A DNA stretch of 58,816 nucleotides from an uncultured Dongia sp. (GTDB taxonomy: Bacteria > Pseudomonadota > Alphaproteobacteria > Dongiales > Dongiaceae): assembly GCF_936916975.1 (NCBI RefSeq), contig NZ_CAKZGO010000011.1, forward strand, positions 1-58,816, given 5' to 3'. The notes below the pieces were generated by a model, which was given only the letters and a program-made list of their open reading frames with translations, was not told where the DNA came from and did no database searches. Below, in pieces: positions 35,403 to 58,665 of the stretch (the stretch's first letter is position 1; every line of letters starts with the position of its first letter). The position numbers and the translations under genes are program-made.

Positions 35403-35410
35403 CGCATTCC

Positions 35411-36154: not shown

Positions 36155-36177
36155 GATGTTGGTCCCTTCTGTATTCC

Positions 36178-36214: not shown

Positions 36215-36221
36215 AAACACT

Positions 36222-38089: not shown

Positions 38090-38136
38090 GACTGCGTGGT
38101 CCCCTGTCGGCTTTTTGTTTGGTGGGACCCCTTCTT

Positions 38137-38265
38137 ACCTCCCCCCTTGAGGGGGAGGTCGCGCGTTAGCGCGGGAGGGGGGTGTGGTGCGTCTCAGTCT
38201 CGTTGCGTCGGAGATGTGGAGAAATGCCCCCCCCCCCCGCCCCCCCCCTCAAGGGGGGAGGGGGA
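38137..38265. repeat. C/G-rich inverted repeat element with poly-C tract
   Basis: CTCCCCCCTTGAGGGGGAG near 38139-38157 and a matching CCCTCAAGGGGGGAGGGGG near 38246-38264 form a long imperfect inverted repeat around GCGCGTTAGCGCG. The stretch at 38227-38248 is almost pure C and may contain sequencing error. The element separates the operon start from the regulator gene. Confidence 0.7.
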
Positions 38266-38287
38266 AGTATTTTGGTGGTCGATACCG

Positions 38288-43648: not shown

Positions 43649-45154
43649 TCATTTCCGTGGCTTCAGGACCGGCCTTCCCAATAGCAGATCGGCGGCCCGT
43701 TCGGCGATGGCAATGATGGCGGCGTTGACCGGACCGGTCGTGATGCTGGGGATGATGGAGGCATCGCAGACATGGAGCCCGTCGAGACCGTGAAGCTTGA
43801 GGTCGAGGCCGACGACAGCATCCGTCCCCTCGCCCATGCGGCAGGTCCCGACGGGATGGTGGTGGGTGTAGGCCGCCTGTTCCAGGAACTTGGCGCGGTC
43901 CTGATGTTGGGGACCAGGTAAAATCTCCGACGCGCGCCAATCGTCGAAGGCATGGGCGCTGCCGATCTCCTGCGCCATGGTGAGGGCATCGAGATAGACT
44001 TTGCGGTCGTAAGGGTCGCTGAGATAATTGGGATCGATGAGCGGCATCACGCGGGGATCGTTGCTCACCAGACGGAGGACGCCGCGACTTTTTGGATGGG
44101 TGAAGCCGAACATCAGCGTATAGGCACTGCCCATCGCGGGGGCTTCGAAGCATTCGGTGACGACGGGGGCCGTGACGCAGGCCAGCACCAGTTCGGGTGC
44201 TGCAGACTTGCTGCCGGGGCGCGGCAGATACATCAGCGCCTCGGAGTTCTGGTATTTCGAGGGCGGCACCGGGCGCTTGGCCGCATAGACATTGCCGCCG
44301 GAGAGCAAATGGTCGTGGAGGTTGCGCCCCACGCCCGGCAGATCGTGGCGCGGCGGGATGCCGATGCTGATCAATTCATCCGCCGGACCGATGCCGGAGC
44401 GGAGCAACAGCATTGGCGAGGCGATGGCACCGGCAGCCAAGATCACGCCTCGCTCGGCGCGGATCTCGCGCGGGCCGGTCGGGCCATCGACCAGGACACC
44501 GATGCAACGCTCCCCGGCGATGATGAGGGACAGAACCTGGGTGTTGCCCATAAGGATGAAATTGCGGCGACCCTCAGTCAGCGGCAGATAGGCGTCGGCA
44601 ATGGTCTGGCGCCTGCCGTCCTTGATGGTGAGGGTGTTGAGCGTCGGACCCGCCATACCCGGTGCGTTGTGATCCGCGATGGGCGCGAAGCCGCGCTCCT
44701 CGCCGGCGGCGAGATAAGCGAGCGTCACGGGGTTGGGTTCGGTGGGACGGATCAGCGAGAGCGGCCCCTGCTCCGACAGTTCGAAATAGGGCAGCAGATC
44801 GGCGTGACTCCAGCCGGGACATTGCCAGTCGTCGAAGTCAGATGGGTGGCCGCGCACATGGGCCATGGCGTTGATGGCGGTTGAGCCGCCGACAACCTTG
44901 CCGCGCGGCCAGTCATGGATGCGGTGCGCGGTATGGGGTTGCGGCACGGTGCGATAGGCCCAGTCGACCTCGCTTCCCTGCAGCAGCGGCCATTTGCCGG
45001 GTTCATGGATGAGCGGGTTGCGTGCGGGGCCACCGGCCTCAACCAGACCCACCTTGATCGTGGGATCGGCACTGAGGCGCGCCGCCAGAACCGCCCCCGC
45101 AGTCCCCGCACCAATGATCAAAAAATCGAACCAATCTGCCGAAGCGAGGGTCAT
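43649..45154 (-). CDS. GMC family FAD-dependent oxidoreductase, candidate pyridoxine 4-oxidase or 4-pyridoxate dehydrogenase
   Basis: A 501-residue glucose-methanol-choline flavoenzyme: FAD loop FDFLIIGAGTAGAVLAARLS (residues ~5-24), GMC signature RGKVVGGSTAINAMAHVRG, GVILAAGAIASPMLLLRSGIG (signature 2). The C-terminal active-site His is in HHHPVGTCRMGEG and Asn in GPVNAAII. It is divergent (116 bp) from pyridoxamine-pyruvate aminotransferase. In known vitamin B6 degradation both pyridoxine 4-oxidase and 4-pyridoxate dehydrogenase are GMC proteins; sequence alone does not tell me which. The coupled lipoprotein mildly favours a membrane-bound dehydrogenase. Confidence 0.85.
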   Translation of the reverse strand: MTLASADWFDFLIIGAGTAGAVLAARLSADPTIKVGLVEAGGPARNPLIHEPGKWPLLQGSEVDWAYRTVPQPHTAHRIHDWPRGKVVGGSTAINAMAHVRGHPSDFDDWQCPGWSHADLLPYFELSEQGPLSLIRPTEPNPVTLAYLAAGEERGFAPIADHNAPGMAGPTLNTLTIKDGRRQTIADAYLPLTEGRRNFILMGNTQVLSLIIAGERCIGVLVDGPTGPREIRAERGVILAAGAIASPMLLLRSGIGPADELISIGIPPRHDLPGVGRNLHDHLLSGGNVYAAKRPVPPSKYQNSEALMYLPRPGSKSAAPELVLACVTAPVVTECFEAPAMGSAYTLMFGFTHPKSRGVLRLVSNDPRVMPLIDPNYLSDPYDRKVYLDALTMAQEIGSAHAFDDWRASEILPGPQHQDRAKFLEQAAYTHHHPVGTCRMGEGTDAVVGLDLKLHGLDGLHVCDASIIPSITTGPVNAAIIAIAERAADLLLGRPVLKPRK

Positions 45155-45162
45155 GAGACGCC

Positions 45163-45254
45163 GGACCAATGTATCGTTGCGGTCGATATTGTGTTCACTT
45201 TTCCAGGCGCGAGTCTAGAATGTCCTGAACCAAAAACACCATTCCGAACCAAAA
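45163..45254. promoter_or_regulatory. Divergent control region of GMC and aminotransferase genes with repeated G(G/A)ACCAA motifs
   Basis: GGACCAAT at 45163-45170, then GAACCAAAAA at 45227-45236 and GAACCAAAA at 45246-45254. The last two are direct repeats spaced 19 bp, about two helical turns. The same motif recurs in the control region of the ten-gene operon and GntR gene at 57,521-57,641. It is a candidate binding site of that regulator. Confidence 0.6.
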
Positions 45255-45270: not shown

Positions 45271-46446
45271 ATGGCCGCAACCGACCTCAAGGAACCCGTC
45301 ATCACGCTGTCGGCCGGGCCGGTTGCCGCCTATCCGCGGGTGCTGCGCGCCATGTCGCGGCCGATTCCCTATGATTATGACCCTTATTTCCAGCATTTCT
45401 ACGAAGGCGTCACCAAGAAGGCGGCGAGAGCTCTGCGCGTCAAAGAGCCGGCGCTCATCCTCCATGTCGAACCGGCGGCGGCGATCGAGGCGGCGGCAGC
45501 GTCGCTCATCGGGCCCAATGACACGGTGCTCAACCTCGCCTCCGGCGTCTATGGCAAGGGGTTCGGATATTGGTCCGCCCGGTACCACAAGGACATGATC
45601 GAGATCGAGGTGCCGTTCAACGAGGCGATCGACCCAGGCGCGGTCGCTGCCGCTTTCAAACAGCGCCCGGATATCAAGGTGGTGTCGCTGGTCCATCACG
45701 ACACGCCGTCGGGCACGATCAATCCGGCCCGCGAGATCGGCAAGATCGTGCGCGATCATGGGGCGCTGCTGCTGGTCGACGCGGTCTCGTCCTTCGGCGG
45801 GATGGATATCCATCCGGGTGATTGCGAGGCGGATGTTTTCATCACCGGGCCGGGGAAATGCCTGGGCGGTGCACCGGGGATCAGCGTCATCGCGGTCAGT
45901 GACCGCGCCTGGGCGCATATGGAGGCGAACCCCAAGGCGCCGCGGGCTTCGATCCTGTCCTATCTCGATTGGAAGGATGCCTGGCGCCATGACAAGCCCT
46001 TCCCCTTCACGCCGTCGGTCGCCGAGGTGAACGGCTTCGATGCCGTGCTGGACCAGTATCTCGACGAGGGGCCGGAGAAGGTCTGGCGGCGTCATGCGCT
46101 GACTGCGAAGGCCACGCGCGCGGGCGTGCTGGCGATGGGGTTGCAGCTTTGGGCGAAGACGGAAGCCATCGCGTCGCCCACCACAACCGCGGTGCGCATT
46201 CCCGACGGCGTCACCGACAGCGCCATCATCGATGCGGCGCGCGACCTATACGGCGTCGTGTTCTCGACCGGGCGCAACGACACGATGGGCAAGCTGCTGC
46301 GCATCGGCCATATGGGCATGGTCGCGGAACCGGTCTACGCCATCGTGGCACTGACGGCACTGGGTGGAGCGCTGCGGAAACTGGGCAAGAAGATCGACGT
46401 CAGCGCCGGAATCAACGCAGCGTTGCAGGTCATCGAAGCGGCATAA
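45271..46446 (+). CDS. Pyridoxamine-pyruvate aminotransferase
   Basis: A 391-residue class V (fold type I) aminotransferase converting pyridoxamine plus pyruvate to pyridoxal plus alanine. It matches my recollection of the Mesorhizobium loti enzyme along its whole length: PVITLSAGPVAAYPRVLRAM, NLASGVYGKGFGYW, HHDTPSGTINP, VDAVSSFGGM and KPFPFTPSV. Lys196 lies in TGPGKCLG. Glu67 (HVEP) stands where ordinary alanine-glyoxylate aminotransferases differ, and Arg-Ile-Gly-His-Met-Gly near the C-terminus would bind the carboxylate. AGGGGAG precedes the ATG. The next gene, 28 bp on, is pyridoxal 4-dehydrogenase. Confidence 0.93.
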   Translation: MAATDLKEPVITLSAGPVAAYPRVLRAMSRPIPYDYDPYFQHFYEGVTKKAARALRVKEPALILHVEPAAAIEAAAASLIGPNDTVLNLASGVYGKGFGYWSARYHKDMIEIEVPFNEAIDPGAVAAAFKQRPDIKVVSLVHHDTPSGTINPAREIGKIVRDHGALLLVDAVSSFGGMDIHPGDCEADVFITGPGKCLGGAPGISVIAVSDRAWAHMEANPKAPRASILSYLDWKDAWRHDKPFPFTPSVAEVNGFDAVLDQYLDEGPEKVWRRHALTAKATRAGVLAMGLQLWAKTEAIASPTTTAVRIPDGVTDSAIIDAARDLYGVVFSTGRNDTMGKLLRIGHMGMVAEPVYAIVALTALGGALRKLGKKIDVSAGINAALQVIEAA

Positions 46447-46474: not shown

Positions 46475-47212
46475 ATGCACAGGTTTGAAGGCCGCGTCGC
46501 GGTCGTGTCGGGCGCCGCACAGGGCATGGGCAAGGCCGTCGCCTTGCGGCTGGGGCGCGAGGGGGCGACGGTGATTGCCGTCGACATCAATGGCGCCGGT
46601 GCCGAGAAGACGGCGAAAGAGATCGGCGGCAAGTCGATCGGTGCCGCCTGCGATATCGGCGATCCGGCATCCGTCACCAAGCTGTTTGCCGAGGTCGCCA
46701 AATTCGGCAAGCTCGATGTGCAGATCAATGCCGCGGCGATCGTGCCGTTCGTGCCCTGGGACGAGCTCACTTTCGAGGAATGGCGCCGGGTGCTGCGGGT
46801 CAATCTCGACGGGCTCTACCTCATGTGCCGGGCCGGGTCGGAGATCATGCGCAAGGCGAATTATGGGCGCATCGTCAATTTCTGCTCCAACTCGATCTTC
46901 GCCGGCACACCCAACATGGCGCATTACGTTGCATCGAAAGGCGGCGTGCTGACTTTCAGCCGCGCGCTCGCGACCGAACTCGGCGCCTATAAGATCACGG
47001 TCAATTGTGTGACGCCGGGCCTGGTTGATTCAGAGAGCGTGCAGCAGAGCCCGCATAAGGAAGCCTTCGGCTTCGTCGAGATGCTGCAGGCGATCAAGGG
47101 CCACGGCAAACCGGACGATGTGGTGCCGGCGGTGGCGTTCCTCGCCTCCGATGAGGCGCATTGGATCACCGGGCAGACGCTCAATGTCGATGCCGGAATG
47201 GTGCGGTGGTAG
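46475..47212 (+). CDS. SDR family pyridoxal 4-dehydrogenase
   Basis: A 245-residue SDR oxidising pyridoxal to 4-pyridoxolactone with NAD+. NAD loop SGAAQGMGKAVA (residues 12-23), NAAAIVPFVPWDEL, YVASK with Tyr151 and Lys155, SNSIFAGTPNMAHYVA, VTPGLVDSESVQQSPHKEAFGFVEMLQAIKGHGKP and WITGQTLNVDAGMVRW closely match the tetrameric M. loti enzyme as I remember it. It is co-transcribed with the aminotransferase that makes its substrate and is convergent with the lactonase that uses its product. Confidence 0.92.
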   Translation: MHRFEGRVAVVSGAAQGMGKAVALRLGREGATVIAVDINGAGAEKTAKEIGGKSIGAACDIGDPASVTKLFAEVAKFGKLDVQINAAAIVPFVPWDELTFEEWRRVLRVNLDGLYLMCRAGSEIMRKANYGRIVNFCSNSIFAGTPNMAHYVASKGGVLTFSRALATELGAYKITVNCVTPGLVDSESVQQSPHKEAFGFVEMLQAIKGHGKPDDVVPAVAFLASDEAHWITGQTLNVDAGMVRW

Positions 47213-47474: not shown

Positions 47475-48281
47475 TCAAGCGTAGTAGTTCGCGCCTGTCT
47501 GGTAGTTCTTGAAGCTGTCGCCATCGTGGGAATAGAACAGCTCGGCGTCGTGTTTGGCGGCGAGGTCTTTCAACCGCTGCATCGATTTGAGGCTGGCCAC
47601 CGGATCGAGGTGGAAGCTGGAGATGCACATCATGTCCATGCTCTTCTGGCTGTAGCAGGCATCGGCCGTGAACAGCATCGGGCGGCGGCCCTTCAATTCC
47701 ACCATCAGGCTGTAATGACCGGCGGTGTGGCCGGGCGTTTCGAACAGCCAGAGGCCCTTGGCGATTTCCTGGTCGCCTTTCAGCGTCTGGAATTTCGGCG
47801 TGTACATGTCGAGCACCGGATCGGCCGGCAGGTCCTTGCCCTTGGCCTTGGCGATCTCGGGCGAAAAGGAGAGGTCCGAATAGCCGAGATGCTCAAAAGG
47901 CTGCGGATGCGCGCAGGCGTCGAGCTCGGCGCCGTGGCAGATGGTGCAGGCCTTGGTGAAGTATTTGTTCCCGCCGCAATGGTCGAAATGATAATGCGAG
48001 TTGATGACATAGTTGATGTCATCAGGCTTCAGACCGAGCTTGGCGAGCTGACCCGGCAAGGTCTGTTCCGGTGTCTGGATCGGCTTTTCGAACGGCAGCA
48101 CGCGCATGACATGGTCGAAATCATAGCCCGTGTCGAAGATGTAGCGGCCGTCGGGATGATCGATCAGCACGGAATAGCAGGGGAAGCGCAACTCGCCACC
48201 CGGACCACGATTCCAGAAGGCGTGATAGCCGTCGATCACCAGCGTACCGCCGTCGAGCAGATGGACCTTCGTGTCGGACAT
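47475..48281 (-). CDS. 4-pyridoxolactonase (metallo-beta-lactamase fold)
   Basis: A 268-residue zinc hydrolase opening 4-pyridoxolactone to 4-pyridoxate. Beginning MSDTKVHLLDGGTLVIDGYH, it matches the M. loti enzyme along its length. The zinc motif SHYHFDH places His96, His98, Asp100 and His101 at the same numbers I recall for that protein. The further ligand His lies in ETPGHTAGHYS, Asp in LFTADACYSQKS and His in FYSHDGDSF. Start chosen at ATG 48281 behind GGGAGGG; the frame is open 20 codons upstream. Last gene of a ten-gene leftward operon, just after an ABC permease. Confidence 0.94.
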   Translation of the reverse strand: MSDTKVHLLDGGTLVIDGYHAFWNRGPGGELRFPCYSVLIDHPDGRYIFDTGYDFDHVMRVLPFEKPIQTPEQTLPGQLAKLGLKPDDINYVINSHYHFDHCGGNKYFTKACTICHGAELDACAHPQPFEHLGYSDLSFSPEIAKAKGKDLPADPVLDMYTPKFQTLKGDQEIAKGLWLFETPGHTAGHYSLMVELKGRRPMLFTADACYSQKSMDMMCISSFHLDPVASLKSMQRLKDLAAKHDAELFYSHDGDSFKNYQTGANYYA

Positions 48282-48321: not shown

Positions 48322-49257
48322 TTAGCGATCACCCCGCACATAGGGCAGGCCGAGGGCCGGCGGCAGCACCGAATGGCGCGCGAAGATCACCAGCACCAGC
48401 ATGACCATGGCAAAGGGCAGCATCTGGACAACATCCGTGGGCACGTTGACGCCGGCCACTTGGAGCGCCGTCGTCATGGCGAGGCTGACACCGAAGAGGA
48501 TGGCGCCGAGCAGCACCCAGACCGGACGACCGCGCGCCAGCATGGCGAGCACGATGCCGATGAAGCCGGCGCCATGCGTCATGAAGGGCACGAACAGGCC
48601 GGCGCCGACATTGGCGAGATAGGCGCCACCGAGGCCGGCGAGAAAGCCGGTCGAGAGGACCGCCATGGAGCGCGTCGCCACCACGCTGATGCCGGCAGCG
48701 TCGAGGGCTGCGGGCTTGGCGCCGGCGGCTTCCAGATTGAGGCCGACATAGCTGGCGCGGAACAGCCAGCCGAGGAACACAACCAGGCCGACCGCGAGAT
48801 AGACGACGATGTTGTGGCTGAACAGCGCGGGCCCAATCACGGGAATGCTGGCAAGTCCGGGAATTTCGAGGACGGGCGCCTTGTCGAGGCGCGGATAGGT
48901 CTTGCTGAACTGGAAGAAATGCAGCAAGGCGGTGAGGCCTTCGGCGCCGATGGTGAGCGCGATGCCGATGACGATCTGGTTGAGGCCCTGGCGGATGCAG
49001 AGCAACACGACGACGCTCGCTACCAGCATGCCGCCGAGGCCGCCGGCCAGGAAACCCATCCAGAACGAGCCGGAATAATAGGCCGCGACGAAGCCGGTAT
49101 AGGCGCCGAACAGCATCATGCCTTCGATGCCGATGTTGAGCACGCCGGCTTTCTCCGAGATCTGTTCGCCCAAGCCCGCGAGGAGCAGCGGCACGCCGGC
49201 GGTGACGGCACCGAAGAGGAGCGAGATGAGGAAGGGTTGGGTGAGGAGTTCGCTCAT
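48322..49257 (-). CDS. BMP-type ABC transporter permease 2 (nucleoside-importer class)
   Basis: A 311-residue permease of the BPD_transp_2 class that works with BMP-family binding proteins. It has about eight helices and the motifs GAVTAGVPLLLAGLGEQISEKAGVLNIGIEGMMLFGA (EAA-like opening) and GLNQIVIGIALTIGAEGLTALL. ATG follows the stop of permease 1 by one base. It precedes 4-pyridoxolactonase by 40 bp with no terminator, so transporter and catabolic gene share an mRNA. Such importers carry nucleosides; here a B6 vitamer is the likely cargo. Confidence 0.92.
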   Translation of the reverse strand: MSELLTQPFLISLLFGAVTAGVPLLLAGLGEQISEKAGVLNIGIEGMMLFGAYTGFVAAYYSGSFWMGFLAGGLGGMLVASVVVLLCIRQGLNQIVIGIALTIGAEGLTALLHFFQFSKTYPRLDKAPVLEIPGLASIPVIGPALFSHNIVVYLAVGLVVFLGWLFRASYVGLNLEAAGAKPAALDAAGISVVATRSMAVLSTGFLAGLGGAYLANVGAGLFVPFMTHGAGFIGIVLAMLARGRPVWVLLGAILFGVSLAMTTALQVAGVNVPTDVVQMLPFAMVMLVLVIFARHSVLPPALGLPYVRGDR

Positions 49258-49258
49258 C

Positions 49259-50326
49259 TCACACCCCTGCCCGCTTGCGGCGGAGATGATCGAGATATTC
49301 GACCAGGGCCAGAAACACCAGCAGCAGGCCCACCAGCATGAGGACGAAATCCTGCGGCACGCCGATGCGGCGCGAGGCACTCTCACCGCCGATCATGAGC
49401 ACGGAGAAGAACAGTGCAAAGCCGATAACGGCGATGCCGTTGAAACGGGCGAGGAACACCAGCGGCACGACGAGCAGGCCATAGGCCGGATTCCAATCGG
49501 CCCGCACGGTACCCCAGACGCCGAGAATCTCGACCGAGCCGGCAAGGCCGATGAGACCGGCGCTGAGCGCGAAGGTGGCGACCGTGAGCCAGCCCACTTT
49601 CAACCCGGCATGCACCGCGGCCGCCGGATTGGCGCCGACGATCTGCAAACGCAGGCCGAAGGCGGTGCGCGTCATCATGAGATGCACCAGGATGACGACT
49701 GCAAGCGCGATGAGAATGCCGCTATGGACATTGGTGCCGAAGATGCGCGGCAGGCGGTCGACCACCTCCAGCGAGCGGGTCTGCGGGACGGTCGTCGCGG
49801 GGTCGCGGAAGAACAGCTTCACCAGCACGTTGGCGAAAGAGGTGCCGAGGAAGCTCATCATCAGCGAGGTGATGATCTCGTTGATGCCGTAGCGTGCCTT
49901 GAGGAGCGCCGGGATGAGCGACCAGGCGGCGGCCACCGCCACCGAGGCAATCATGCAGATGAGAAGTGTCAGACCGCGCGGCAATGTCTCGATGAGGGCG
50001 GGAGCGAGTGCTGCCGTCACCACAGCCGCCAGCAGATATTGCCCGTCGCCGCCCAGATTCCAGATACCTGCGCGGAAAGCCACGATGAGGCCGGCGGCGA
50101 TCAGCAGCAAGGGCGCCATGCGGGTCATGGTTTCCTGGAAGCCGCCCCAGCTCAGCAACCCGCGCTGCACGACATAGCCATAATAGGTCAGCGGATTCTT
50201 GCCGAGGATCAGCAGGATGGCGCCGCCGACGGCAAGGGCCAGCAGGATGGGCACAGCCACGCGGGCGATGGCGGCGAGGAGCTCGCGGGTGCGATCCTGG
50301 GTGAGTGGGAGCGCGTCGATGCTCAT
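49259..50326 (-). CDS. BMP-type ABC transporter permease 1
   Basis: A 355-residue permease, the longer partner of the pair. The N-terminal helix is PILLALAVGGAILLILGKNPLTYYGYVV. Then come APLLLIAAGLIVAFRAGIWNLGGDGQYLLAAV (the characteristic FRAG.WNIG.EGQ block), YGINEIITSLMMSFLGTSF and VGANPAAAVHAGLKVG (cytoplasmic coupling loop). Its ATG overlaps the ATPase TGA. Together the two permeases form an asymmetric channel. Confidence 0.93.
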   Translation of the reverse strand: MSIDALPLTQDRTRELLAAIARVAVPILLALAVGGAILLILGKNPLTYYGYVVQRGLLSWGGFQETMTRMAPLLLIAAGLIVAFRAGIWNLGGDGQYLLAAVVTAALAPALIETLPRGLTLLICMIASVAVAAAWSLIPALLKARYGINEIITSLMMSFLGTSFANVLVKLFFRDPATTVPQTRSLEVVDRLPRIFGTNVHSGILIALAVVILVHLMMTRTAFGLRLQIVGANPAAAVHAGLKVGWLTVATFALSAGLIGLAGSVEILGVWGTVRADWNPAYGLLVVPLVFLARFNGIAVIGFALFFSVLMIGGESASRRIGVPQDFVLMLVGLLLVFLALVEYLDHLRRKRAGV

Positions 50327-51990
50327 GACGATACCTGCCCCGTCATCAGCTTGCCGATGGCGAGTTCCACCTCCGGCCCGTTCTCGACGATGCCGACCAG
50401 GCGACCCTGATACATGACACCGATGCGGTCGCTTACCTCGAGCAGTTCATCGAGATCGGTCGAGATCACGATGGTGCCGAGGCCGTGGCCGGCGCTTTCG
50501 ACGATGCGCTCATGGGCAAGGCGGGTGTTCTGCAAATCGAGGCCATAGGTCGGCTTGTTGAAGATGACAACACCGGCATCATTGGCGAGCTCGCGGGCGA
50601 GGAGCACCTTCTGGATGTTGCCGCCGGAGAGCTTGCCGATCGGCGTCTTTTCCGAGGGTGTGCGGATGTCATGATCCTGGATCTTCTCCCGCGCGTGATC
50701 GTGGATGCGGGTCCAATCGGTCATGCCGCGGCGCCAGAAGGGTGCGCTGCCGATTTCCTTCAGCAACAGATTGGTGGCGACGGAGAAGGCGCCGACCGTC
50801 CCCTCGCCCAACCGCTCATCGGTCACATAGCGGATGCCGGCCTGGCGGCGCACGGGGACAGCGGCCGCGGTGATGTCGGCCCCGTCGAGACAAACCGTGC
50901 CGCTCGTTATCTTGCGCTGACCGGCGAGTGCTTCGGCGAGATGCTTTTGACCGTTCCCGTCGATGCCGGCGACGCCGAGTACTTCGCCGGGCCAGAGATC
51001 GAAGGTGACGTCGTGCAGCGGGCAGGCACCGCGATCGGCGGCGGTGGCAATCTGCGTGACGCGCAGGCGTGGTGCCCCGCTACGATCGACCTCGCGGCGC
51101 GCGCGGCGGCCTTCGGCGCGACCGACAAGAAGTTCCGCCGCTGCTGCATCGGTCGGTGTGGCGGCGCCGAACATCATGGCGATAACGCGGTCGGTGACCT
51201 GCTGCTCGGTCATCACACGTCGCTCGTCGGGGGCGATGGCACCCACCGAGCGGCCGAGGCGCAGGACCGAGATGCGGTCACCGAGTTCATAGGCCTCGGC
51301 CAATTTGTGGGTGATGAGGATGAGGGCGACGCCCTTGCTCCGCAGACGGCGCATCACCTCGCCCAGATCCTTGACGCCCTGCGGCGTCAGCATGGAGGTG
51401 GGCTCATCGAGGATAAGGATTTTTTCACCGCGCCACAAAGCGCGCATGATTTCGACCTGCTGCTGCTCGCCCAGCGACAGCTTGCCAACCAACGCATCGG
51501 CATCGAGGGTGACGCCGAGGAGATCTGATAGTTCGCGGAAGCGCGCAAGCGCCGCGGAGCGGGCCAGCTTCTGCCACCAAGAACCACCCAGCATCAGATT
51601 TTCGATGACGGTGAGGCTCGGCACCAGCAGCACATGCTGGAAGACCGTGCCGATGCCGTGGTCGAGGCTTTCGCGCGGTGAGCCGAGGCGCACCTTGGCT
51701 CCGTCGATCAGGATATCGCCGGCATCCGGCTGCTGCATGCCGGCGAGGATGCCGATCAGGGTCGATTTGCCGGCGCCGTTTTCGCCGAGCAGGACATGGA
51801 TTTCACCGGCATTGAAGTCCAGTGAGATATCGTCATTCGCGACGACGCCGGGAAAGCGTTTGCCAATATGCCGGACTGCAGCAACGGGGGCAGGATTTCC
51901 ACCTGCCCCCGTGCTGATCGCTGTCGACATGGTCTGCGTGTCAATCATCTCGCCACTTTGCAACGGGCTTGGCAGCGAGTCCATCTTCAT
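50323..51990 (-). CDS. BMP-type ABC transporter ATP-binding protein, duplicated NBD
   Basis: A 555-residue double-domain ATPase of the nucleoside-import (YufO/NupO-like) class. Domain 1: GENGAGKSTLIGIL, signature LSLGEQQQVEIMRALW, LILDEPTSMLTPQGV. Domain 2: GIDGNGQKHLAEALAG (degenerate P-loop, usual here), LSGGNIQKVLLAREL, and VVIFNKPTYGLDLQNT. In the second Walker B, Asn-Lys replaces Asp-Glu, which is typical of this subfamily's weak second site. Start uncertain among ATG 51990, 51984 and 51948; the first ~30 residues are not conserved-looking. Confidence 0.92.
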   Translation of the reverse strand: MKMDSLPSPLQSGEMIDTQTMSTAISTGAGGNPAPVAAVRHIGKRFPGVVANDDISLDFNAGEIHVLLGENGAGKSTLIGILAGMQQPDAGDILIDGAKVRLGSPRESLDHGIGTVFQHVLLVPSLTVIENLMLGGSWWQKLARSAALARFRELSDLLGVTLDADALVGKLSLGEQQQVEIMRALWRGEKILILDEPTSMLTPQGVKDLGEVMRRLRSKGVALILITHKLAEAYELGDRISVLRLGRSVGAIAPDERRVMTEQQVTDRVIAMMFGAATPTDAAAAELLVGRAEGRRARREVDRSGAPRLRVTQIATAADRGACPLHDVTFDLWPGEVLGVAGIDGNGQKHLAEALAGQRKITSGTVCLDGADITAAAVPVRRQAGIRYVTDERLGEGTVGAFSVATNLLLKEIGSAPFWRRGMTDWTRIHDHAREKIQDHDIRTPSEKTPIGKLSGGNIQKVLLARELANDAGVVIFNKPTYGLDLQNTRLAHERIVESAGHGLGTIVISTDLDELLEVSDRIGVMYQGRLVGIVENGPEVELAIGKLMTGQVSS

Positions 51991-51994: not shown

Positions 51995-53059
51995 TTATTG
52001 GGCGGGCGCGTCGGTGACCGAGCTCATCAAAGCGCGGACCTTTTCGGCTTCCCAGACCGGCTCGATCTTCAACGACCCGTCGACAATCTGCTTGCGCGTG
52101 TCGTTGACCGAGGCCCAGACGTCGTCCGGGATGTTCTTGGTCTTCAACAACTGCACCGAATCGTCGGAGAGCTGGATCGAATAGGCCTTCGTACCGAACT
52201 TGTCGGCCTTCAGATCCTCGACCATCGCCGTATAGACCGGAACCAGATTCCAGACCACCGATGAGAGCAGGTGGCCCTTGTCGATCGCGGTCTTGTCGCC
52301 GATGACATCGATGAACCAGACATTGCCGCCACCGGTCGACTTCGTGGTCTCGACCGCCTGCAGCATGCCGAAGGTGGCACCGTCGCCCTGGCCGAAGATG
52401 ACGTCGGCGCCGGCGCCGATCACCGATTCGGTGACACGGCGACCGCCGGCCGCGTCCGCATAGGCGGCTGGGCCAATGACGGCGTAGAGGATCTTGACGG
52501 CCGGATCGGTCGCCTTGACACCCTGCGCAAACGCTGCCGACTGCGAGTTCCATGACGGCGGCTCGCCCGAGACGACGATGCCGACCGATTTCGTGGTCGA
52601 GGTCTTGGCGGCAAGGATGCCGGCAAGATAGGCGCCTTCATGGCCGCTCAAAGTGTAGTCGGCGACTTCGCCGGCCTTGATCGCATCCGGCTTGTCGACG
52701 ATGGCAACGGCGACACCCTTTTCGGCACCGATTTCCGGGGCCGCGGTGTTGTAGCCGCTGGCATGGGCGATCATCAGGCTGGCGCCATCATCTGCGAGTT
52801 CACGCAGAGTCGGGTGCACATCGCCGTAGCCTAAGCCCGTGGCTGGCATGAATTCGATGCCCATCTTCTCGGCGACCGCTTTCGCGGCGTCAAAGCCCTG
52901 CTGGTTCCAGCCGTAATCGGTCGGGTCTTCCGGCGTCAGGATGGCGAGCTTCTTGACATCCTTGGCCTCGGCCGGCGCACCGGCGAAGGCCGCAACACCG
53001 CACAGGGTCAATGCCAGCATCGACACCTGTGCCAGTTTCGTCCATTTGGTCTTGGTCAT
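51995..53059 (-). CDS. BMP family ABC transporter substrate-binding protein
   Basis: A 354-residue periplasmic protein with a Sec signal peptide (SMLALTLCGVAAFAGAPAEA, then KDVKKLAIL). The BMP/PnrA-like fold is evident: DYGWNQQGFDAAKAVAEKMG, MIAHASGYNTAAPEIGAEKGVAVAI, YTLSGHEGAYLAGILAAKTSTTKSVGIV and GADVIFGQGDGATFGMLQA. Family members bind nucleosides by stacking aromatic side chains on the base, and a pyridine ring would suit the same pocket. ATG 53059 has GGAGAGG before it. Encoded between the FHMPC dehydrogenase and transporter ATPase genes. Confidence 0.92.
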   Translation of the reverse strand: MTKTKWTKLAQVSMLALTLCGVAAFAGAPAEAKDVKKLAILTPEDPTDYGWNQQGFDAAKAVAEKMGIEFMPATGLGYGDVHPTLRELADDGASLMIAHASGYNTAAPEIGAEKGVAVAIVDKPDAIKAGEVADYTLSGHEGAYLAGILAAKTSTTKSVGIVVSGEPPSWNSQSAAFAQGVKATDPAVKILYAVIGPAAYADAAGGRRVTESVIGAGADVIFGQGDGATFGMLQAVETTKSTGGGNVWFIDVIGDKTAIDKGHLLSSVVWNLVPVYTAMVEDLKADKFGTKAYSIQLSDDSVQLLKTKNIPDDVWASVNDTRKQIVDGSLKIEPVWEAEKVRALMSSVTDAPAQ

Positions 53060-53151: not shown

Positions 53152-54069
53152 TCAGCTCTCCAGCGCCTTGCGCACGGCGACCAACCGCTTGGCGCGCTGC
53201 TGCTGGAGGGCGGCGATTTTTTCCGGCGTATAGCTGAAGACGCCACCACCGGTCTTGATGCCGAGCTTGCCGGCGGCGGTGCGCTCAGTGACGAAGGGGC
53301 TTAGCGTATCGCGGTTGCACAGTTCCTTGTTGAGATAGGAACCGACCGCCTGGTAGATGTCGAGCCCAGCCACGTCCAGCAAGGCCATCGGGCCGATGAC
53401 GGAAAGCTTGTAGCCGATGCCCCAGGAGACGCAGGTGTCGAGGCCTTCTGCATCGATGACGCCTTGGTCGACGAGATCGACGCATTCGCGCAGCAGGGCA
53501 TAGAGCACGCGGTTCTCGACGAAGCCCGGGACATCCTTCTGCACCACGACGGGGAGCAGCCCCAGGCCCTTGATCGTCTCGACCATCCAGTCGCAGGTGG
53601 CTTTGGAGGTCTTCTCGCCGGCGATCACCTCGATCATCGGGATGACATGGGGCGGGTTCGACCAATGCATGCCGACGACGCGCTCCGGCGCCGAGACATT
53701 GGCCTGCAGCTTGGTGATGGGAATGCCCGACGTGTTGCTGGCGATGATGCATGTCTTGTCGACCAGCGCGTCGATTTCCTTGAAGGCCTGCGCCTTGATC
53801 TCGAACTTCTCCGGCACGGTCTCGATCACCAAAGTGGCGCCGGCGACGCATTCCTGCAGGCTGGAAGCGATTTTCACGGTCGCCCCATTGCTGCGGTCCG
53901 GCGTGCCGAGATTGGTGAGGACCGTATTGGCCAGCGTCAAACCGGCGCCGGCCTTGTTGCGCTGTTCCTCGGACAGGTCGAACGCGGTTACCTGCATGCC
54001 GGCGCGCAACAAGGTCTGGGCAATGCCCGGTCCCATGGTGCCCAATCCGACGATTGCTGCCTTGGTCAT
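53152..54069 (-). CDS. 3-hydroxyacyl-CoA dehydrogenase family protein, FHMPC 5-dehydrogenase
   Basis: A 305-residue two-domain NAD-dependent dehydrogenase. NAD loop IVGLGTMGPGIAQTLL (residues 6-21), VIETVPEKFEIK, IASNTSGIPITKL and GMHWSNPPHVIPMIEVI (catalytic His). Its closest remembered relative is 5-formyl-3-hydroxy-2-methylpyridine-4-carboxylate 5-dehydrogenase of M. loti, including DVPGFVENRVLYALLRECVDLV and DTCVSWGIGYKLSVIGPMALLD. It would make 3-hydroxy-2-methylpyridine-4,5-dicarboxylate (HMPDC), the last intermediate before ring opening. Strong CAGGAGGG ribosome site. Confidence 0.9.
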   Translation of the reverse strand: MTKAAIVGLGTMGPGIAQTLLRAGMQVTAFDLSEEQRNKAGAGLTLANTVLTNLGTPDRSNGATVKIASSLQECVAGATLVIETVPEKFEIKAQAFKEIDALVDKTCIIASNTSGIPITKLQANVSAPERVVGMHWSNPPHVIPMIEVIAGEKTSKATCDWMVETIKGLGLLPVVVQKDVPGFVENRVLYALLRECVDLVDQGVIDAEGLDTCVSWGIGYKLSVIGPMALLDVAGLDIYQAVGSYLNKELCNRDTLSPFVTERTAAGKLGIKTGGGVFSYTPEKIAALQQQRAKRLVAVRKALES

Positions 54070-54136: not shown

Positions 54137-54742
54137 TTAGACGCCGATCGCCTTCTTGAAGGCCGGCCGCTCCATCAATTTCTTGCGCCAGGCCGCGAGA
54201 TTGCCGAGTTCCGGCAGATCCACGGGGAAATCCAGGCAGCGGATCACCACTGGCCCCAGCGCGATGTCGGCGAGGCTGAAACTGTCGCCACCCGCCCACT
54301 TCTTGCCCGCGATCCCCTTGTTGAGAATCCCGAGTTGCGCCGCGAGGTCCTTGGAATCAGCATCCCAGCTGGCGGCGCGTTCGCCCGGCGCCTTCTTCGC
54401 TTCCTTGAAGATGCCGAGATAAGGCGGATTGAGGGAAGCCAGCATCCAATCCATCCAGCGTTCCACCTGCGTCCGCGCGGCGGGGTCCGCCGGGTAAAGC
54501 TCGGTGTTCTTCTGCTTGTTGCAAAGATAGCGCAGGATCGTGTTGGATTCCCAAATCACGACCTTGTCATCGACCAAGGTCGGCACCTTGCCGTTGGGAT
54601 TGAGGCTGAGATAGGCGTCGTCGGTCGTGTTGTTGAACTGGCGGCCGTAATCCTCGCGGGCATAGGGCAAGCCCAGTTCCTCGAGGAGAAAAATCACCTT
54701 CTGCACGTTGCCGGACGTGTTCCGACCTAGAAGTCTCAACAT
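54137..54742 (-). CDS. Glutathione S-transferase family protein
   Basis: A 201-residue GST. The thioredoxin-like half has GRNTSGNVQKVIFLLEELGLPY (Ser10 as candidate catalytic residue), NPNGKVPTLVDD (cis-Pro) and WESNTILRYL. The helical half includes WMDWMLASLNPP and SFSLADIALGPVVIRC. In gentisate-type pathways a GST isomerises the ring-opened product. Here it is between RidA and FHMPC dehydrogenase genes and may play a comparable part, although its class (theta/beta-like) is not specifically that of maleylpyruvate isomerase. Confidence 0.9.
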   Translation of the reverse strand: MLRLLGRNTSGNVQKVIFLLEELGLPYAREDYGRQFNNTTDDAYLSLNPNGKVPTLVDDKVVIWESNTILRYLCNKQKNTELYPADPAARTQVERWMDWMLASLNPPYLGIFKEAKKAPGERAASWDADSKDLAAQLGILNKGIAGKKWAGGDSFSLADIALGPVVIRCLDFPVDLPELGNLAAWRKKLMERPAFKKAIGV

Positions 54743-54802
54743 GCTGCCTGTCTCCCCATTGTCGGCGCTGTCATGCGCGCCTGTTGTATCGATACACTCG
54801 CC

Positions 54803-55183
54803 TCAAGCTTTCGGTTTGTAGGCGATGGCATCCATCTCGATCTTGCATTCGATCACCGCGCGGGCCTCGACCGTCGTCCGCGCCAGCACACCTTCGGGAA
54901 AATATTCGGCAAAGATTCGGTTGTAGCGGCCGAAATTGCGCGCATCTTCGAGAAAGATGGTCATCTTGACGATGTCCGACAGCTCAGCCCCTTCGAGCGC
55001 CAGAATGCGACGGACAGATTCAATCGTCCAGCGGGTTTCCTCTTCTATATTGCCTGCACACATGTTTCCGTTTTCATCCTTGGCAACTTGTCCCGATACA
55101 AAGATGAAATCGCCGGCACGGACAGCCGGATGAAACGGCAGGTTCGGATTCTTCTTTCCGATCGGTTGAATTTTATCGCTCAT
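54803..55183 (-). CDS. RidA (YjgF/YER057c/UK114) family protein
   Basis: A 126-residue trimeric-type RidA protein, normal length. Arg102 in VLARTTVEARAVIECKIEMDAIAY is the conserved arginine that grips the carboxylate of imine substrates in catalytic RidA members. The GQVAKDENGNMCAGNIEEETRWTIESVRRIL segment is also typical. RidA enzymes hydrolyse 2-iminopropanoate and similar enamines/imines. In a B6 ring-degradation operon an imine of pyruvate is a predictable ring-opening product, so this is plausibly a dedicated pathway enzyme. Confidence 0.9.
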   Translation of the reverse strand: MSDKIQPIGKKNPNLPFHPAVRAGDFIFVSGQVAKDENGNMCAGNIEEETRWTIESVRRILALEGAELSDIVKMTIFLEDARNFGRYNRIFAEYFPEGVLARTTVEARAVIECKIEMDAIAYKPKA

Positions 55184-55195
55184 CCCTGCCCTCTC

Positions 55196-56323
55196 TCAGA
55201 ACACACTGGTCTCGATAATGTCGACACCGCGCTGGCGGTCGATGAGATAGATGATGCCGCGATCGTCCATGGTGACGTCGTTGGAGGATGCGAGATCGAA
55301 GCCCTGCGGCGCATCGGTTTCGTAGAAGCCGACCTCGACCGGCTTGAACGGGTCGGCAAAGTCGATGAGACGCATGCCCTGTGCGAACCATGCAAAGGGA
55401 ATGATCGTGCCGTTGAAGCGCTCGGAGGGCTGGTGGCAGCCCATCATCGGCGGCTGCGGCGAGCCGTCCTTGTCGAGACCTTCGACCTGGAAGGTCGAGA
55501 TCGGGATCGGGCAATGTTCGTTGGTGATGTCATAGACCCAGGTGAATGCGGGTGCGGCCGGCCAGAGCTTCGCCACATCCTCATCCGCCACGATCATGAT
55601 GTCGCGGCCTTTCAGCTTCTGCTTCATCTTGAGACAGGTATGGGTGGGATGCGGAAAGGTCGGCGAGGTATTGGTGGCGGAGATCAGCTTGGGCCGCGAC
55701 ATGTCCTCGATATCGAGGATGAAGAAGCCGTGATGCCAATAGCTGACATACATGCGGTTGCCGACACGCAACGGGTGATGGCAGCGCGGCGGGGTCCAAT
55801 TGTCCCAGGGATATTCCTCGCCACCCGCCTGCCATTGGCCGGGAATCCACCAGCGGCCGACTTCCTCCGGCTTTGTGGGATCCTTGAGATCGAGGATCAT
55901 CGCGATATTGCCGATGTAACCTTCAGCCGTCGGCGAGATGTAGGCGTAGCGGCCGTCGAAATCGTAGCGATGCACGCCCTTGCCATGGGTGCGCCATTTG
56001 CTGATGAGCCTGGGTTCCGCGGGCCGAGAGACGTCATAGATGCCAAGGCCGCCGCCGAAACCGGCATCGCCGTCCTGGCCCTGCTTTTCATGGTTCACCA
56101 CCATGATGTCGTTGGCGACGCGCACCTTGTGGGAATGCCAGCCGGACGGCATCTCAATGCGCGCGAGCTGCTTGGGGTTTCGCGGGTCGGCGACATCGAC
56201 GATGGTGGTGCCGGTCGGCTGGCGCATATGGCCGATATAGAGAATGCGGTTCTCGACCCAGACCTGGCCGCCGCCCGGGCAATCGATATGGCCGATCAGT
56301 TTGGTGTTCTTACTCTTCGCCAT
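55196..56323 (-). CDS. LVIVD-repeat beta-propeller protein
   Basis: A 375-residue protein built from repeats of the LVIVD type (TTIVDVADPRNPKQLARIE, LGIYDVSRPAEPRLISKW, AMILDLKDPTKPEEVGRWW, FFILDIEDMSRPKLISAT, MRLIDFADPFKPVEVGFY). They predict a six- or seven-bladed propeller. It has no signal peptide. Several His-rich turns (GWHSHKV, RCHHPLRV, YWHHGFF, FPHPTHTCLKM) could bind metal. Enzymatic role unknown. Its place between the ring-cleavage-type bicupin and RidA genes, with gaps of 18 and 12 bp, implies a pathway function. Confidence 0.85.
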   Translation of the reverse strand: MAKSKNTKLIGHIDCPGGGQVWVENRILYIGHMRQPTGTTIVDVADPRNPKQLARIEMPSGWHSHKVRVANDIMVVNHEKQGQDGDAGFGGGLGIYDVSRPAEPRLISKWRTHGKGVHRYDFDGRYAYISPTAEGYIGNIAMILDLKDPTKPEEVGRWWIPGQWQAGGEEYPWDNWTPPRCHHPLRVGNRMYVSYWHHGFFILDIEDMSRPKLISATNTSPTFPHPTHTCLKMKQKLKGRDIMIVADEDVAKLWPAAPAFTWVYDITNEHCPIPISTFQVEGLDKDGSPQPPMMGCHQPSERFNGTIIPFAWFAQGMRLIDFADPFKPVEVGFYETDAPQGFDLASSNDVTMDDRGIIYLIDRQRGVDIIETSVF

Positions 56324-56341
56324 CTTGCGCGTAATTCCCGT

Positions 56342-57490
56342 TCAGGCCAGTCGGACGGTTTCGCCGGTCTTGGTCTTGCCGTGTTTCTGATAGAGGGCCA
56401 GCGCCTTCAAGGTGGGTTCGTCGCTGGCCACGAACAGGATCGCCGGATCCTTGTCGGAGGTGTTGACATGCTCGCACCATTCGCCGCCGGGGACCGCCAT
56501 GGTGTCGAAGGGGGACCAGTCGATACGCTTGCCGCCGACGATGCTGTAGCCGTTGCCTTCGAAGGGTGAGACGGTGAGGCTGGCATTCTGCTTCAGCGGC
56601 AGCGTTTTCTCGCCGGGGCGCAGCATCTGCATGAAGAAGGTCATGGTCTTGAAGATCGACTGTCCGTTGGTCGGATCGACATATTCGATCATCAAGGCTT
56701 CATGGGGATCGCCGTCATAGCTTTTGGCGCGTTCCAGCGCCTCGCGCATCATGTCCCAGCGATAGACATACATGGGCGACGCAAAGCCGGTGCCGCGGTT
56801 ATGCGAGACGAAGCGCGGCTTCAGCCCACCGCTGCCATAGATCGACTGCGAATAGTTTTCCGGGAAACGTTCCGACTGCATGACGCGGCGGACGCGCTTG
56901 CCCTCCTCTTCTTCCGTGTAATCGTGCTCGAAATACATGGCGCAGAGTGTTTCCACGAGCGGCAGATCGAGGACGCTGAGGTTGATCGCGTTCTCATTGC
57001 CCCTATTGCCGTGATTGTGCCAGGTGTCATGGGGTGTCAGCACCAGATCGCCAGGCCCGAAGGTGATGTTCTCGCCCTCAACGCCGGTGAAATTCTGACT
57101 GCCGGTCAACCCTAAGCGAATAGCGTTGGGCGAATGCCGGTGCGGCGGCATGATTTCGTTGGGATCGTTGAGCCGGTAGGCGACATAGAGCGTGGAGACG
57201 GCGGCGCGCTTGGGCGCCATGCCGGGATTGACCAGCACCAGCGAGCGGCGCTCCGAGCTTTCGGTGGTGATGAGTTCCGCCGAGCGGTAGAGCAGTGGTT
57301 CGATATCGCCCTTATAGGTCCAGCTGAACGGCACTGCCTTGCGGGTATCGCGGATCTGCTTGTCTTCGTCATTCTTGACATTGCGGTCGACCACCCAGAA
57401 CGGCGCCATGTTATGGGCGGCGACATCGGCATGGAGATCGTCCAGCGCCGCCTGCAGATTGGAGCCATCGAGCTTCTGTGCCGAACTCAT
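56342..57490 (-). CDS. Bicupin ring-cleavage dioxygenase, gentisate/salicylate 1,2-dioxygenase-like
   Basis: A 382-residue bicupin. The first cupin carries the iron site: PPHRHSPNAIR (His117, His119) and TPHDTWHNHGN (His158), exactly the pattern of gentisate, 1-hydroxy-2-naphthoate and salicylate dioxygenases. The second cupin (GGKRIDWSPFDTMAVPGGEWCEHVN) is degenerate, as usual. These enzymes cleave an aromatic ring between a hydroxyl-bearing and a neighbouring carboxyl-bearing carbon. First gene of the operon; ATG 57490 follows AGGGAGAGG. Substrate by context: a 3-hydroxypyridine-4-carboxylate from vitamin B6. Confidence 0.88.
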   Translation of the reverse strand: MSSAQKLDGSNLQAALDDLHADVAAHNMAPFWVVDRNVKNDEDKQIRDTRKAVPFSWTYKGDIEPLLYRSAELITTESSERRSLVLVNPGMAPKRAAVSTLYVAYRLNDPNEIMPPHRHSPNAIRLGLTGSQNFTGVEGENITFGPGDLVLTPHDTWHNHGNRGNENAINLSVLDLPLVETLCAMYFEHDYTEEEEGKRVRRVMQSERFPENYSQSIYGSGGLKPRFVSHNRGTGFASPMYVYRWDMMREALERAKSYDGDPHEALMIEYVDPTNGQSIFKTMTFFMQMLRPGEKTLPLKQNASLTVSPFEGNGYSIVGGKRIDWSPFDTMAVPGGEWCEHVNTSDKDPAILFVASDEPTLKALALYQKHGKTKTGETVRLA

Positions 57491-57520
57491 CCGCCTCTCC
57501 CTCATCGCGGCGGCAGGTCT

Positions 57521-57807: not shown

Positions 57808-58665
57808 ATGGGACCAAATTTTCGACGGACCCAACAGATGCTGCAGAACGTGGACCAGACCCTCAACAAATTGCGCCGGCTGATCACCGATGGTGCCATT
57901 GGTGCGGATGGCCGCATGCCACCGGAGCGGCATCTGGCGGACGAGCTTGGCGTCGGGCGCCGGTCGCTGCGCCGCGCCCTCGATATCCTGGAGCAGGAGG
58001 GCCGCATCACCCGTGAGCAGGGCCGCGGCACCTTTGTCCATGCCAACAGCAACCGGGAAAGCGTGGCGGTGGTGCCGGCCATGTCGCATACCAATGGCAA
58101 TGGTCATGCGAATGGGGGCTATGCCAATGGCCAGGGTAACGGCAACGGGCACCACCTTGACGCCGGGATCGGTGCGGCCTTCGCCGCCATCCCGTTCGAC
58201 CGCATCCTGGAATTCACCAACCCAATCGAAGTTTCTGAAGTGCGCCTGGCCGTGGAGCCGGTGATTGCGCGCCTCGCAGCACTCCGCGCCTCGCAGGCCG
58301 ATATAAGACGCCTGGAGGGTGCCCTGGCGGAGACGAAGAACGCCACCGACCCGCTGGTCTATGAGAAGGCCGATGAGAAATTCCACCGCATCATTGCCGA
58401 AGCTGCGCGCAATGCGCTGTTCCTGTCGCTGTTCGATACCTTTGGCGCCAGCCGGCGCGATGCGACCTGGCGACGCCTCAGCGAGAATGCCCATTGCTTC
58501 AAGCGCCAGGCGGTCCATGCCGCCTCGCATGAAGAGATCTATGAAGCCATCGCCGCGCGCAATTCGGAACGCGCCTATGAATGCATGTACCGGCATTTGA
58601 GCGATATCCAGCGGCATATCTATACATATGCCTTTCCGCAGGAGCCGGTGGAGCAGCGGTCGTAG
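57808..58665 (+). CDS. GntR family transcriptional regulator (FCD subfamily), likely B6-catabolism regulator
   Basis: A 285-residue regulator with an N-terminal winged helix (LNKLRRLITDGAIGADGRMPPERHLADELGVGRRSLRRALDILEQEGRITREQGRGTFV, ~residues 18-77) and an FCD domain from ~residue 130 (VRLAVEPVIARLAALRA, EKADEKFHRIIAEAARNALFLSLF, HEEIYEAIAARNSERAYECMYRHL). Between them lies an unusual Asn/Gly/His-rich linker of ~25 residues. It is divergent from the ten-gene operon. A GntR-type repressor is also known for the M. loti pathway (recalled). ATG 57808 assumed; ATG 57838 is possible. Confidence 0.92.
   Translation: MGPNFRRTQQMLQNVDQTLNKLRRLITDGAIGADGRMPPERHLADELGVGRRSLRRALDILEQEGRITREQGRGTFVHANSNRESVAVVPAMSHTNGNGHANGGYANGQGNGNGHHLDAGIGAAFAAIPFDRILEFTNPIEVSEVRLAVEPVIARLAALRASQADIRRLEGALAETKNATDPLVYEKADEKFHRIIAEAARNALFLSLFDTFGASRRDATWRRLSENAHCFKRQAVHAASHEEIYEAIAARNSERAYECMYRHLSDIQRHIYTYAFPQEPVEQRS

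Follow-up and report, generated by a model that had tools for sequence, protein, structure and literature searches.

A candidate third ring-opening route in bacterial vitamin B6 catabolism: a bicupin, LVIVD, RidA and GST gene cassette in a Dongia locus

Introduction

How could vitamin B6 be degraded by a bacterium that carries the upper genes of a known B6 pathway and, beside them, none of the classical genes for opening the pyridine ring? The question is raised by contig NZ_CAKZGO010000011.1 of an uncultured Dongia sp., whose 58,816 nucleotides are here called the window. Four of its genes, coding for a bicupin of the dioxygenase type, an LVIVD-repeat protein, a RidA-family protein and a glutathione S-transferase (GST)-like protein, stand in one operon with B6 genes, and an initial annotation had proposed that they constitute an undescribed ring-opening branch. 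The analysis described here indicates that this cassette very probably replaces the lower half of the B6 pathway at 3-hydroxy-2-methylpyridine-4,5-dicarboxylate (HMPDC), and that B6-eating soil bacteria appear to open the ring by a non-textbook four-gene module built around an iron dioxygenase. The best explanation, which is considered probable, would be the Fe(II)-dependent cleavage of HMPDC between C3 and C4, followed by processing of the product by RidA, GST and LVIVD.

According to PMC3538738, two B6 degradation routes are known, and the route of Mesorhizobium loti MAFF303099 is like the first of them. No report of a cupin in B6 catabolism was found in the open-licence literature.

Gene content and layout of the locus

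The upper genes of pathway I, coding for pyridoxamine-pyruvate transaminase (PPAT), pyridoxal 4-dehydrogenase, 4-pyridoxolactonase and the dehydrogenase of 5-formyl-3-hydroxy-2-methylpyridine-4-carboxylate (FHMPC), are all present in the window, with scores above the NCBIfam equivalog cut-offs. The cassette and the central B6 genes are as follows (aa, amino acids; ORF, open reading frame; SDR, short-chain dehydrogenase/reductase):

56342..57505, minus strand: bicupin ring-cleavage dioxygenase of 387 aa, proposed HMPDC 3,4-dioxygenase (alternative start at 57490)
55196..56323, minus strand: LVIVD-repeat beta-propeller of 375 aa, proposed metal-dependent hydrolase
54803..55183, minus strand: RidA-family protein of 126 aa, proposed enamine/imine deaminase
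54137..54742, minus strand: GST-like protein of 201 aa, proposed cis-trans isomerase
53152..54069, minus strand: FHMPC dehydrogenase, HMPDC-forming (NF042925, 500.6 bits, cut-off 500; structure 4om8, E 7e-118)
47475..48281, minus strand: 4-pyridoxolactonase (NF047925, 483.9 bits, cut-off 325; the ORF extends to 48341 and the match begins at residue 21)
46475..47212, plus strand: SDR-type pyridoxal 4-dehydrogenase (NF047923, 414.6 bits, cut-off 325; ORF from 46364, start chosen)
45271..46446, plus strand: PPAT (NF046070, 645.2 bits, cut-off 600)

The minus-strand run begins at 57505 and continues downward with the bicupin, LVIVD, RidA, GST and FHMPC dehydrogenase genes, followed by those of a B6-type substrate-binding protein, an ABC ATPase, two permeases and 4-pyridoxolactonase, whereas the genes for PPAT and pyridoxal 4-dehydrogenase lie on the plus strand and face this operon. 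From the coordinates, the intergenic gaps between the bicupin and FHMPC dehydrogenase genes are 18, 12, 60 and 67 bp. The single strand, the short gaps and the NCBIfam matches bear out the initial annotation, which had described the four cassette genes as co-operonic with those of FHMPC dehydrogenase and 4-pyridoxolactonase.

Replacement of the lower pathway genes

Loci from other genomes were compared in a sample consisting of the best 80 of 222 FHMPC dehydrogenase relatives, the more distant ones lying outside it. Bicupin-type loci account for 43 of the 80, and they contain LVIVD in all cases, GST in 42 and RidA in 40. Another 35 are classical: the oxygenase of 2-methyl-3-hydroxypyridine-5-carboxylate (MHPC), HMPDC decarboxylase and a 197-aa AA_synth-domain protein are encoded in every one of them, and acetamidomethylene-succinate (AAMS) hydrolase in 34. 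The two types were never found together in the 80 loci, since the 43 bicupin loci are devoid of MHPC oxygenase, HMPDC decarboxylase and AAMS hydrolase and the 35 classical ones of the bicupin; weaker cross-matches between the types were not detected in either direction (tblastn, E<=1e-8). The remaining two loci (L106 and L108; L and G numbers denote loci and genomes) are cut contigs showing GST alone or RidA and GST.

The displaced classical genes match the solved structures 3kxp (AAMS hydrolase), 3alj (MHPC oxygenase) and 2z7b (named mlr6791), the last of which we take to be HMPDC decarboxylase, in agreement with a reference title. The cassette occupies the place held in classical loci by the genes for HMPDC decarboxylase, MHPC oxygenase, AAMS hydrolase and the AA_synth protein, which fits the bypass of decarboxylation and flavin oxygenase suggested in the initial annotation. 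As a separate observation, the AA_synth-domain (PF06684) protein, encoded between MHPC oxygenase and HMPDC decarboxylase (for instance at L063:6372-6965), occurs in 35/35 classical and 0/43 bicupin loci.

The absence of the three classical ring-opening genes from the Dongia locus, also stated in that annotation, extends to the whole host genome (5.48 Mb, 100% complete as a computed figure) at E<=1e-20. At this threshold neither MHPC oxygenase nor HMPDC decarboxylase was found there, with only weak matches (29-33% identity) in other genomes, and a classical decarboxylase/oxygenase pair located elsewhere in the host was discarded as a candidate; AAMS hydrolase was likewise not found, in a search without a positive control of its own. 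The bicupin-type genomes, 44 in number and of unstated completeness, comprise those of L106, of L108 and of all bicupin loci except L040 (42 of 43). A MHPC oxygenase match (E<=1e-60) was obtained in one of them, G411; it is 44% identical, and the 4-kb locus around it contains no further gene of those tested. Conversely, the bicupin was found in 0/35 classical genomes with the same query that gave matches in genomes of the order and class.

In a quick tree of 81 FHMPC dehydrogenase sequences (SH-aLRT support only, L106 and L108 counted as bicupin type), two changes of type are needed, both forced by starred branches, and within Mesorhizobium the bicupin-type and classical sequences form two sister groups.

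Co-occurrence in the order and the class

The association of the set with B6 genes in other genomes, which the initial annotation had named as a check, its lack counting against the proposal, was found: the bicupin accompanies FHMPC dehydrogenase in 14/17 genomes of the order and 6/385 of the class as well as in the 43/80 loci; the order sample represents one family. FHMPC dehydrogenase (E<=1e-80) and the bicupin (E<=1e-20) occur in the same 14 genomes of the order, and at these thresholds neither was found in the other three. Roughly 3 kb separate the starts of the two genes, with the exception of G010, in which the full bicupin gene is on a different contig and a partial one adjoins that of FHMPC dehydrogenase. 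In the class sample (both at E<=1e-90), FHMPC dehydrogenase was found in six genomes and the bicupin in the same six plus G172, whose paralogue shows 41% identity (43% as tabulated by the search), has Ser, Trp and Asp at the three key sites discussed below and lies in a 4-kb locus without any other of the genes tested. This co-occurrence exceeds chance. LVIVD proteins with at least 74% identity are restricted to those six bicupin genomes, while relatives with at most 55% identity are found in 13 more of the 385 (E<=1e-20).

Two further arrangements were observed. In G302 (L125, L136) the order is bicupin, FHMPC dehydrogenase and LVIVD, so the genes are together despite rearrangement. At L155:6314-10342, the LVIVD protein that, within the class sample, is most similar to the B6 clade (55% identity) is encoded between genes for a thiamine diphosphate enzyme and a class I/II aminotransferase, in a genome with no bicupin at E<=1e-90, which represents another setting for this propeller family.

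The bicupin: family, fold and active site

The bicupin is 22-41% identical to the relatives compared. Its two NCBIfam matches, the models for 5-aminosalicylate 1,2-dioxygenase (NF049978, 206.4 bits, cut-off 650) and gentisate 1,2-dioxygenase (TIGR02272, 199.7 bits, cut-off 442.1), lie far under the cut-offs. Gentisate/salicylate dioxygenases take places 1-17 of the Foldseek search with the structure model and are also the six full-length sequence matches; the weaker fold matches include oxalate decarboxylase.

In PMC10306065 and PMC11264262, Arg83, Gln108, Arg127 and His162 of salicylate dioxygenase are described as contacting the carboxylate of the substrate, Asp174 as recognising with Trp104 the 5-OH of gentisate, and Gln108, Trp172 and Asp174 as conserved in gentisate dioxygenases. 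Alignment of the bicupin with salicylate dioxygenase, with residue numbers counted by hand, gave these equivalences (bicupin first): R86=R83, R111=Q108, H122=H119, H124=H121, R130=R127, H163=H160, H165=H162, N175=W172 and S177=D174. The iron-binding histidines that the initial annotation had read as intact (His117, His119 and His158) are H122, H124 and H163 when counted from the longer start. Together with R86, R130 and H165, this 3-His site is invariant in 24/24 and 43/43 readable copies.

The other three positions have changed: Gln108 is replaced by Arg, Trp172 by Asn and Asp174 by Ser in all 43 readable B6-associated bicupins (44 sequences, L040 being truncated). The 13 other homologues, taken from 11 of 196 plasmid records plus G172, have none of these three residues at the respective positions but Gln (11) or Ser (2), followed by Trp and Asp. 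Since HMPDC bears an extra 5-carboxylate beside the first one, the changes from Gln to Arg and from Asp to Ser would fit a more anionic substrate. Moreover, of the classical intermediates that follow FHMPC, HMPDC alone has an ortho hydroxyl/carboxylate pair, as in salicylate, and would thus suit a bicupin of this kind; MHPC was ruled out as substrate on chemical grounds because its hydroxyl and carboxyl groups are meta. HMPDC is a strong candidate for the substrate, it seems quite likely that the bicupin cleaves it, and there are good reasons to place the predicted cut at C3-C4.

The bicupins of L151 and G172 may form a further specificity group of the family.

Proposed pathway and roles of LVIVD, RidA and GST

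The cassette is envisaged as an alternative lower half of B6 catabolism starting at HMPDC, the product of FHMPC dehydrogenase. The steps would be: i) the ortho hydroxyl and carboxylate of HMPDC are bound by the bicupin at Fe(II), and O2 is inserted between C3 and C4 to form HOOC-C(CH3)=N-CH=C(COOH)-CO-COOH; ii) hydrolysis of the C=N bond yields pyruvate and aminomethylene-oxaloacetate; iii) the enamine/imine of the latter is deaminated by RidA, perhaps partly spontaneously; iv) a glutathione-dependent cis-trans isomerisation is catalysed by GST, in the manner of maleylpyruvate isomerase; and v) the LVIVD propeller serves as a metal hydrolase in place of the FAH hydrolase of the gentisate pathway. 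The balance would be HMPDC + O2 + 3 H2O -> pyruvate + NH3 + oxaloacetate + formate, and neither a decarboxylation nor an NADH-dependent flavin oxygenase would take part. We infer the cleavage product and the RidA-to-pyruvate step, both already suggested by the initial annotation. The RidA, GST and LVIVD steps and the end products are proposed with less confidence than the ring cleavage.

The LVIVD protein, to which the initial annotation gave no role, is present in 43/43 bicupin loci. These proteins are 70-94% identical across loci, with 12 His invariant in 24 sequences. The structure model (mean pLDDT 82.3) is a propeller of nearly all strand, and a reading of its secondary structure places several of the invariant His at the first strand in a blade. 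Its best fold match is a Sphingobium phosphotriesterase (5hrm, TM 0.71-0.73, E 5.6e-18), the next ones, at about 1e-8, being generic propellers; by profile the same protein is matched at E 7e-11, in repeat units only. The phosphotriesterase has a binuclear metal centre. Gln-type bicupin homologues with annotation have an FAH hydrolase gene adjacent or one gene off in 9/9 cases, and none was found among the searched genes of the B6 operon, where LVIVD stands instead and is thus the obvious protein to propose as the missing hydrolase. The chances that it is the pathway metal hydrolase seem evenly balanced. LVIVD homologues on plasmids (L152, L153) are in transport or sugar contexts, which shed no light on the role.

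The RidA protein (PF01042, E 6e-26) has the Arg102 reported in the initial annotation; this residue, invariant in 41/41 sequences, is taken here to be the catalytic Arg, which is R105 in the E. coli protein. Among others, the window's RidA matches 2-aminomuconate deaminase (6izh, E 1.1e-15), and a function as a pathway step is slightly favoured. The GST has its best score, a weak one, with maleylacetoacetate isomerase (60.9 bits against a cut-off of 171.05), and its assignment as pathway isomerase is tentative, being somewhat doubtful.

Alternative explanations

Several observations weigh against the proposed route or parts of it. FHMPC dehydrogenase clears its NCBIfam cut-off barely. On the tree, the types form blocks, hence few swaps. 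The structure model of the bicupin is modest (mean pLDDT 68.8), and at L151:6944-8760 a bicupin gene (39% identity) whose product has Ser in the Gln108 position is followed by a dienelactone hydrolase gene rather than by one for FAH. The hydrolase role of LVIVD rests on the fold resemblance (TM 0.71) and the invariant His, and an FAH-family gene in another cluster of the window (34554-35402, 19 kb away) could serve instead. RidA is missing from three of the 43 bicupin loci (L047, L054, L082) and GST from one (L047). Finally, the GMC-family dehydrogenase of the Mesorhizobium loci, which we presume to be 4-pyridoxate dehydrogenase, has a choline dehydrogenase as nearest solved structure, and at E<=1e-150 a close relative was found neither in the host genome nor in the other six of the 7/14 bicupin genomes of the order that lack it.

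The missing genes are relevant to the view that RidA and GST are housekeeping or protective proteins, dealing with 2-aminoacrylate from pyridoxal phosphate (PLP) enzymes or with electrophile stress, so that only the bicupin and LVIVD, which stay where the others are missing, would be pathway enzymes. RidA may indeed be dispensable, given the three loci without it. Nevertheless, both genes travel with the bicupin and are found in 0/35 classical loci, 32 of which contain PPAT, the same PLP enzyme; RidA as protector of that enzyme is disfavoured on this basis, and the housekeeping explanation as a whole is rather unlikely.

According to a second alternative, the substrate of the bicupin is found one or two steps before HMPDC and is 4-pyridoxate or FHMPC, which likewise have a 3-OH beside a 4-COOH, and the "FHMPC dehydrogenase" works on a ring-opened product or in another branch. 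This would agree with the host genome having no close relative of the presumed 4-pyridoxate dehydrogenase. That enzyme is encoded in 31/43 bicupin loci and was not seen in the other 12 (within the fetched stretch, some contigs being short); its match at E<=1e-150 was obtained in 7/17 genomes of the order.

The Mesorhizobium loci, 18 of bicupin type and 21 classical by record title, argue for a later step. In four pairs made up of one locus of each type, the 9.9-kb flank that extends from shortly past FHMPC dehydrogenase to the transaminase is colinear and shows 85-89% DNA identity; FHMPC dehydrogenase itself has 80-83%, and the presumed 4-pyridoxate dehydrogenase gene, whose position differs, 77-78%. 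The remainder of the 10-kb left block gave no blastn match longer than 100 bp across types, save an oxidase at 64-65%. At the protein level (three pairs), FHMPC dehydrogenase is 80-85% identical and 4-pyridoxolactonase 88-98.5%. As the flank and FHMPC dehydrogenase are kept in both types, both very likely convert FHMPC to HMPDC, and an earlier-acting bicupin would compete with the dehydrogenase for FHMPC. It would compete for 4-pyridoxate too, since the presumed 4-pyridoxate dehydrogenase gene is directly upstream of that of the bicupin in bicupin-type Mesorhizobium (L064, M. loti, and L107, M. ciceri; 81-82% identity). Besides, the displaced genes are those acting after HMPDC, and the change from Gln108 to Arg would suit a second carboxylate. 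The swap thus likely lies after HMPDC, with HMPDC as the likely branch point, and cleavage at an earlier step retains a small probability.

The seven bicupin genomes of the order with no close relative of the presumed 4-pyridoxate dehydrogenase include all four of one genus. A replacement was looked for in the window's lineage and no candidate emerged. The GMC enzyme of the window (43649..45169, minus strand; probable pyridoxine 4-oxidase, 4ha6, E 1.3e-121) has its best solved match in 3t37, a "probable dehydrogenase" (E 6.9e-122), level with 4ha6, and is 36% identical to the presumed 4-pyridoxate dehydrogenase and 45-48% to the oxidase group. Perhaps this pyridoxine-oxidase-like enzyme covers both alcohol oxidations in the Dongia lineage.

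It is improbable that the cupin is a decarboxylase or other cupin enzyme acting on HMPDC and that LVIVD or another protein opens the ring. Cupins do include decarboxylases, as the weaker fold match illustrates, and LVIVD, with its many invariant His, is found in every locus that has the bicupin; still, the best fold and full-length sequence matches are all gentisate/salicylate dioxygenases, and the 3-His site and the R83/R127/H162 equivalents are intact. That an ordinary gentisate/salicylate dioxygenase merely neighbours the B6 genes is highly improbable: both NCBIfam models point to that family, but the scores and active-site residues rule out such an enzyme as such, the gentisate-recognising Asp being replaced in every readable copy, the searched operon genes including no FAH hydrolase and the bicupin co-occurring with FHMPC dehydrogenase across genera.

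Other genes of the window

The remaining genes associated with the locus are the following:

51995..53059, minus strand: putative B6 ABC transporter substrate-binding protein (NF047927, 485.3 bits, cut-off 400; ORF to 53128, start chosen)
50323..51990, minus strand: ABC transporter ATPase (match in 73/80 loci)
49259..50326, minus strand: ABC permease 1 (match in 72/80 loci)
48322..49260, minus strand: ABC permease 2 (start within a longer ORF; match in 72/80 loci)
57808..58665, plus strand: divergent GntR/FCD regulator

The ATPase and both permeases were assigned by sequence reading and synteny, without a family search. A metagenome-assembled genome labelled Dongia mobilis is the nearest named relative among the 80 loci, with a 98% identical FHMPC dehydrogenase. 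Farther away, a minus-strand cluster at 33620-39058 codes for a PfkB kinase, an FAH-family hydrolase, an SDR, an amidohydrolase, an aldo/keto reductase and a GntR regulator and, as its family matches are read, resembles a sugar-acid catabolic operon.

Significance of the proposed route

The full proposal is that of a third B6 route, in which bicupin cleavage of HMPDC without decarboxylation is followed by LVIVD, RidA and GST steps leading to pyruvate, ammonia and C4 plus C1 acids, the module is swapped as a unit and LVIVD represents a new family of catabolic hydrolases; taken in its entirety, it stands in the balance. If true, the very genus where the genes were worked out harbours a third, so far unrecorded, ring-opening chemistry, including a strain labelled M. 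loti DSM 2626 (L064). HMPDC would be the proposed substrate for a clade named only cupin or gentisate-dioxygenase-like, and a likely function would be available for a His-rich LVIVD propeller. The swap of a pathway segment between close relatives, even within one genus, would also constitute a natural experiment. NADH is the cofactor of the classical MHPC oxygenase, and by the proposed balance one NADH would be saved and no carbon lost as CO2.

Comparison with known systems

The locus shares with B6 pathway I (Pseudomonas MA-1 and M. loti MAFF303099) PPAT, pyridoxal 4-dehydrogenase, 4-pyridoxolactonase and FHMPC dehydrogenase, as well as the Mesorhizobium flank, and differs from it in that HMPDC decarboxylase, MHPC flavin oxygenase and AAMS hydrolase are replaced by the bicupin, LVIVD, RidA and GST. 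B6 pathway II (Pseudomonas IA and Arthrobacter Cr-7), another bacterial opening of the B6 ring, likewise uses a flavin oxygenase. As described in PMC3538738, it ends in 2-(hydroxymethyl)-4-oxobutanoate.

Gentisate/salicylate 1,2-dioxygenases (3bu7, 2d40, 2phd) have the same bicupin fold, 3-His iron site and equivalents of Arg83, Arg127 and His162, whereas their Gln108, Trp172 and Asp174 are Arg, Asn and Ser here, with no FAH partner in the operon. The gentisate operon, as in Azospirillum oryzae (L160), also combines a cupin dioxygenase with a hydrolase (FAH) and a GST (maiA); here LVIVD takes the place of FAH and RidA is added, which the ring nitrogen would call for. The RidA fold is also that of 2-aminomuconate deaminase (6izh), which deaminates a ring-cleavage product, although the substrate here would be an N-alkenyl 2-iminopropanoate or aminomethylene-oxaloacetate. 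As for LVIVD, the Sphingobium phosphotriesterase or haloalkylphosphorus hydrolase (5hrm), at 19% identity, is the nearest solved relative both by fold and by profile.

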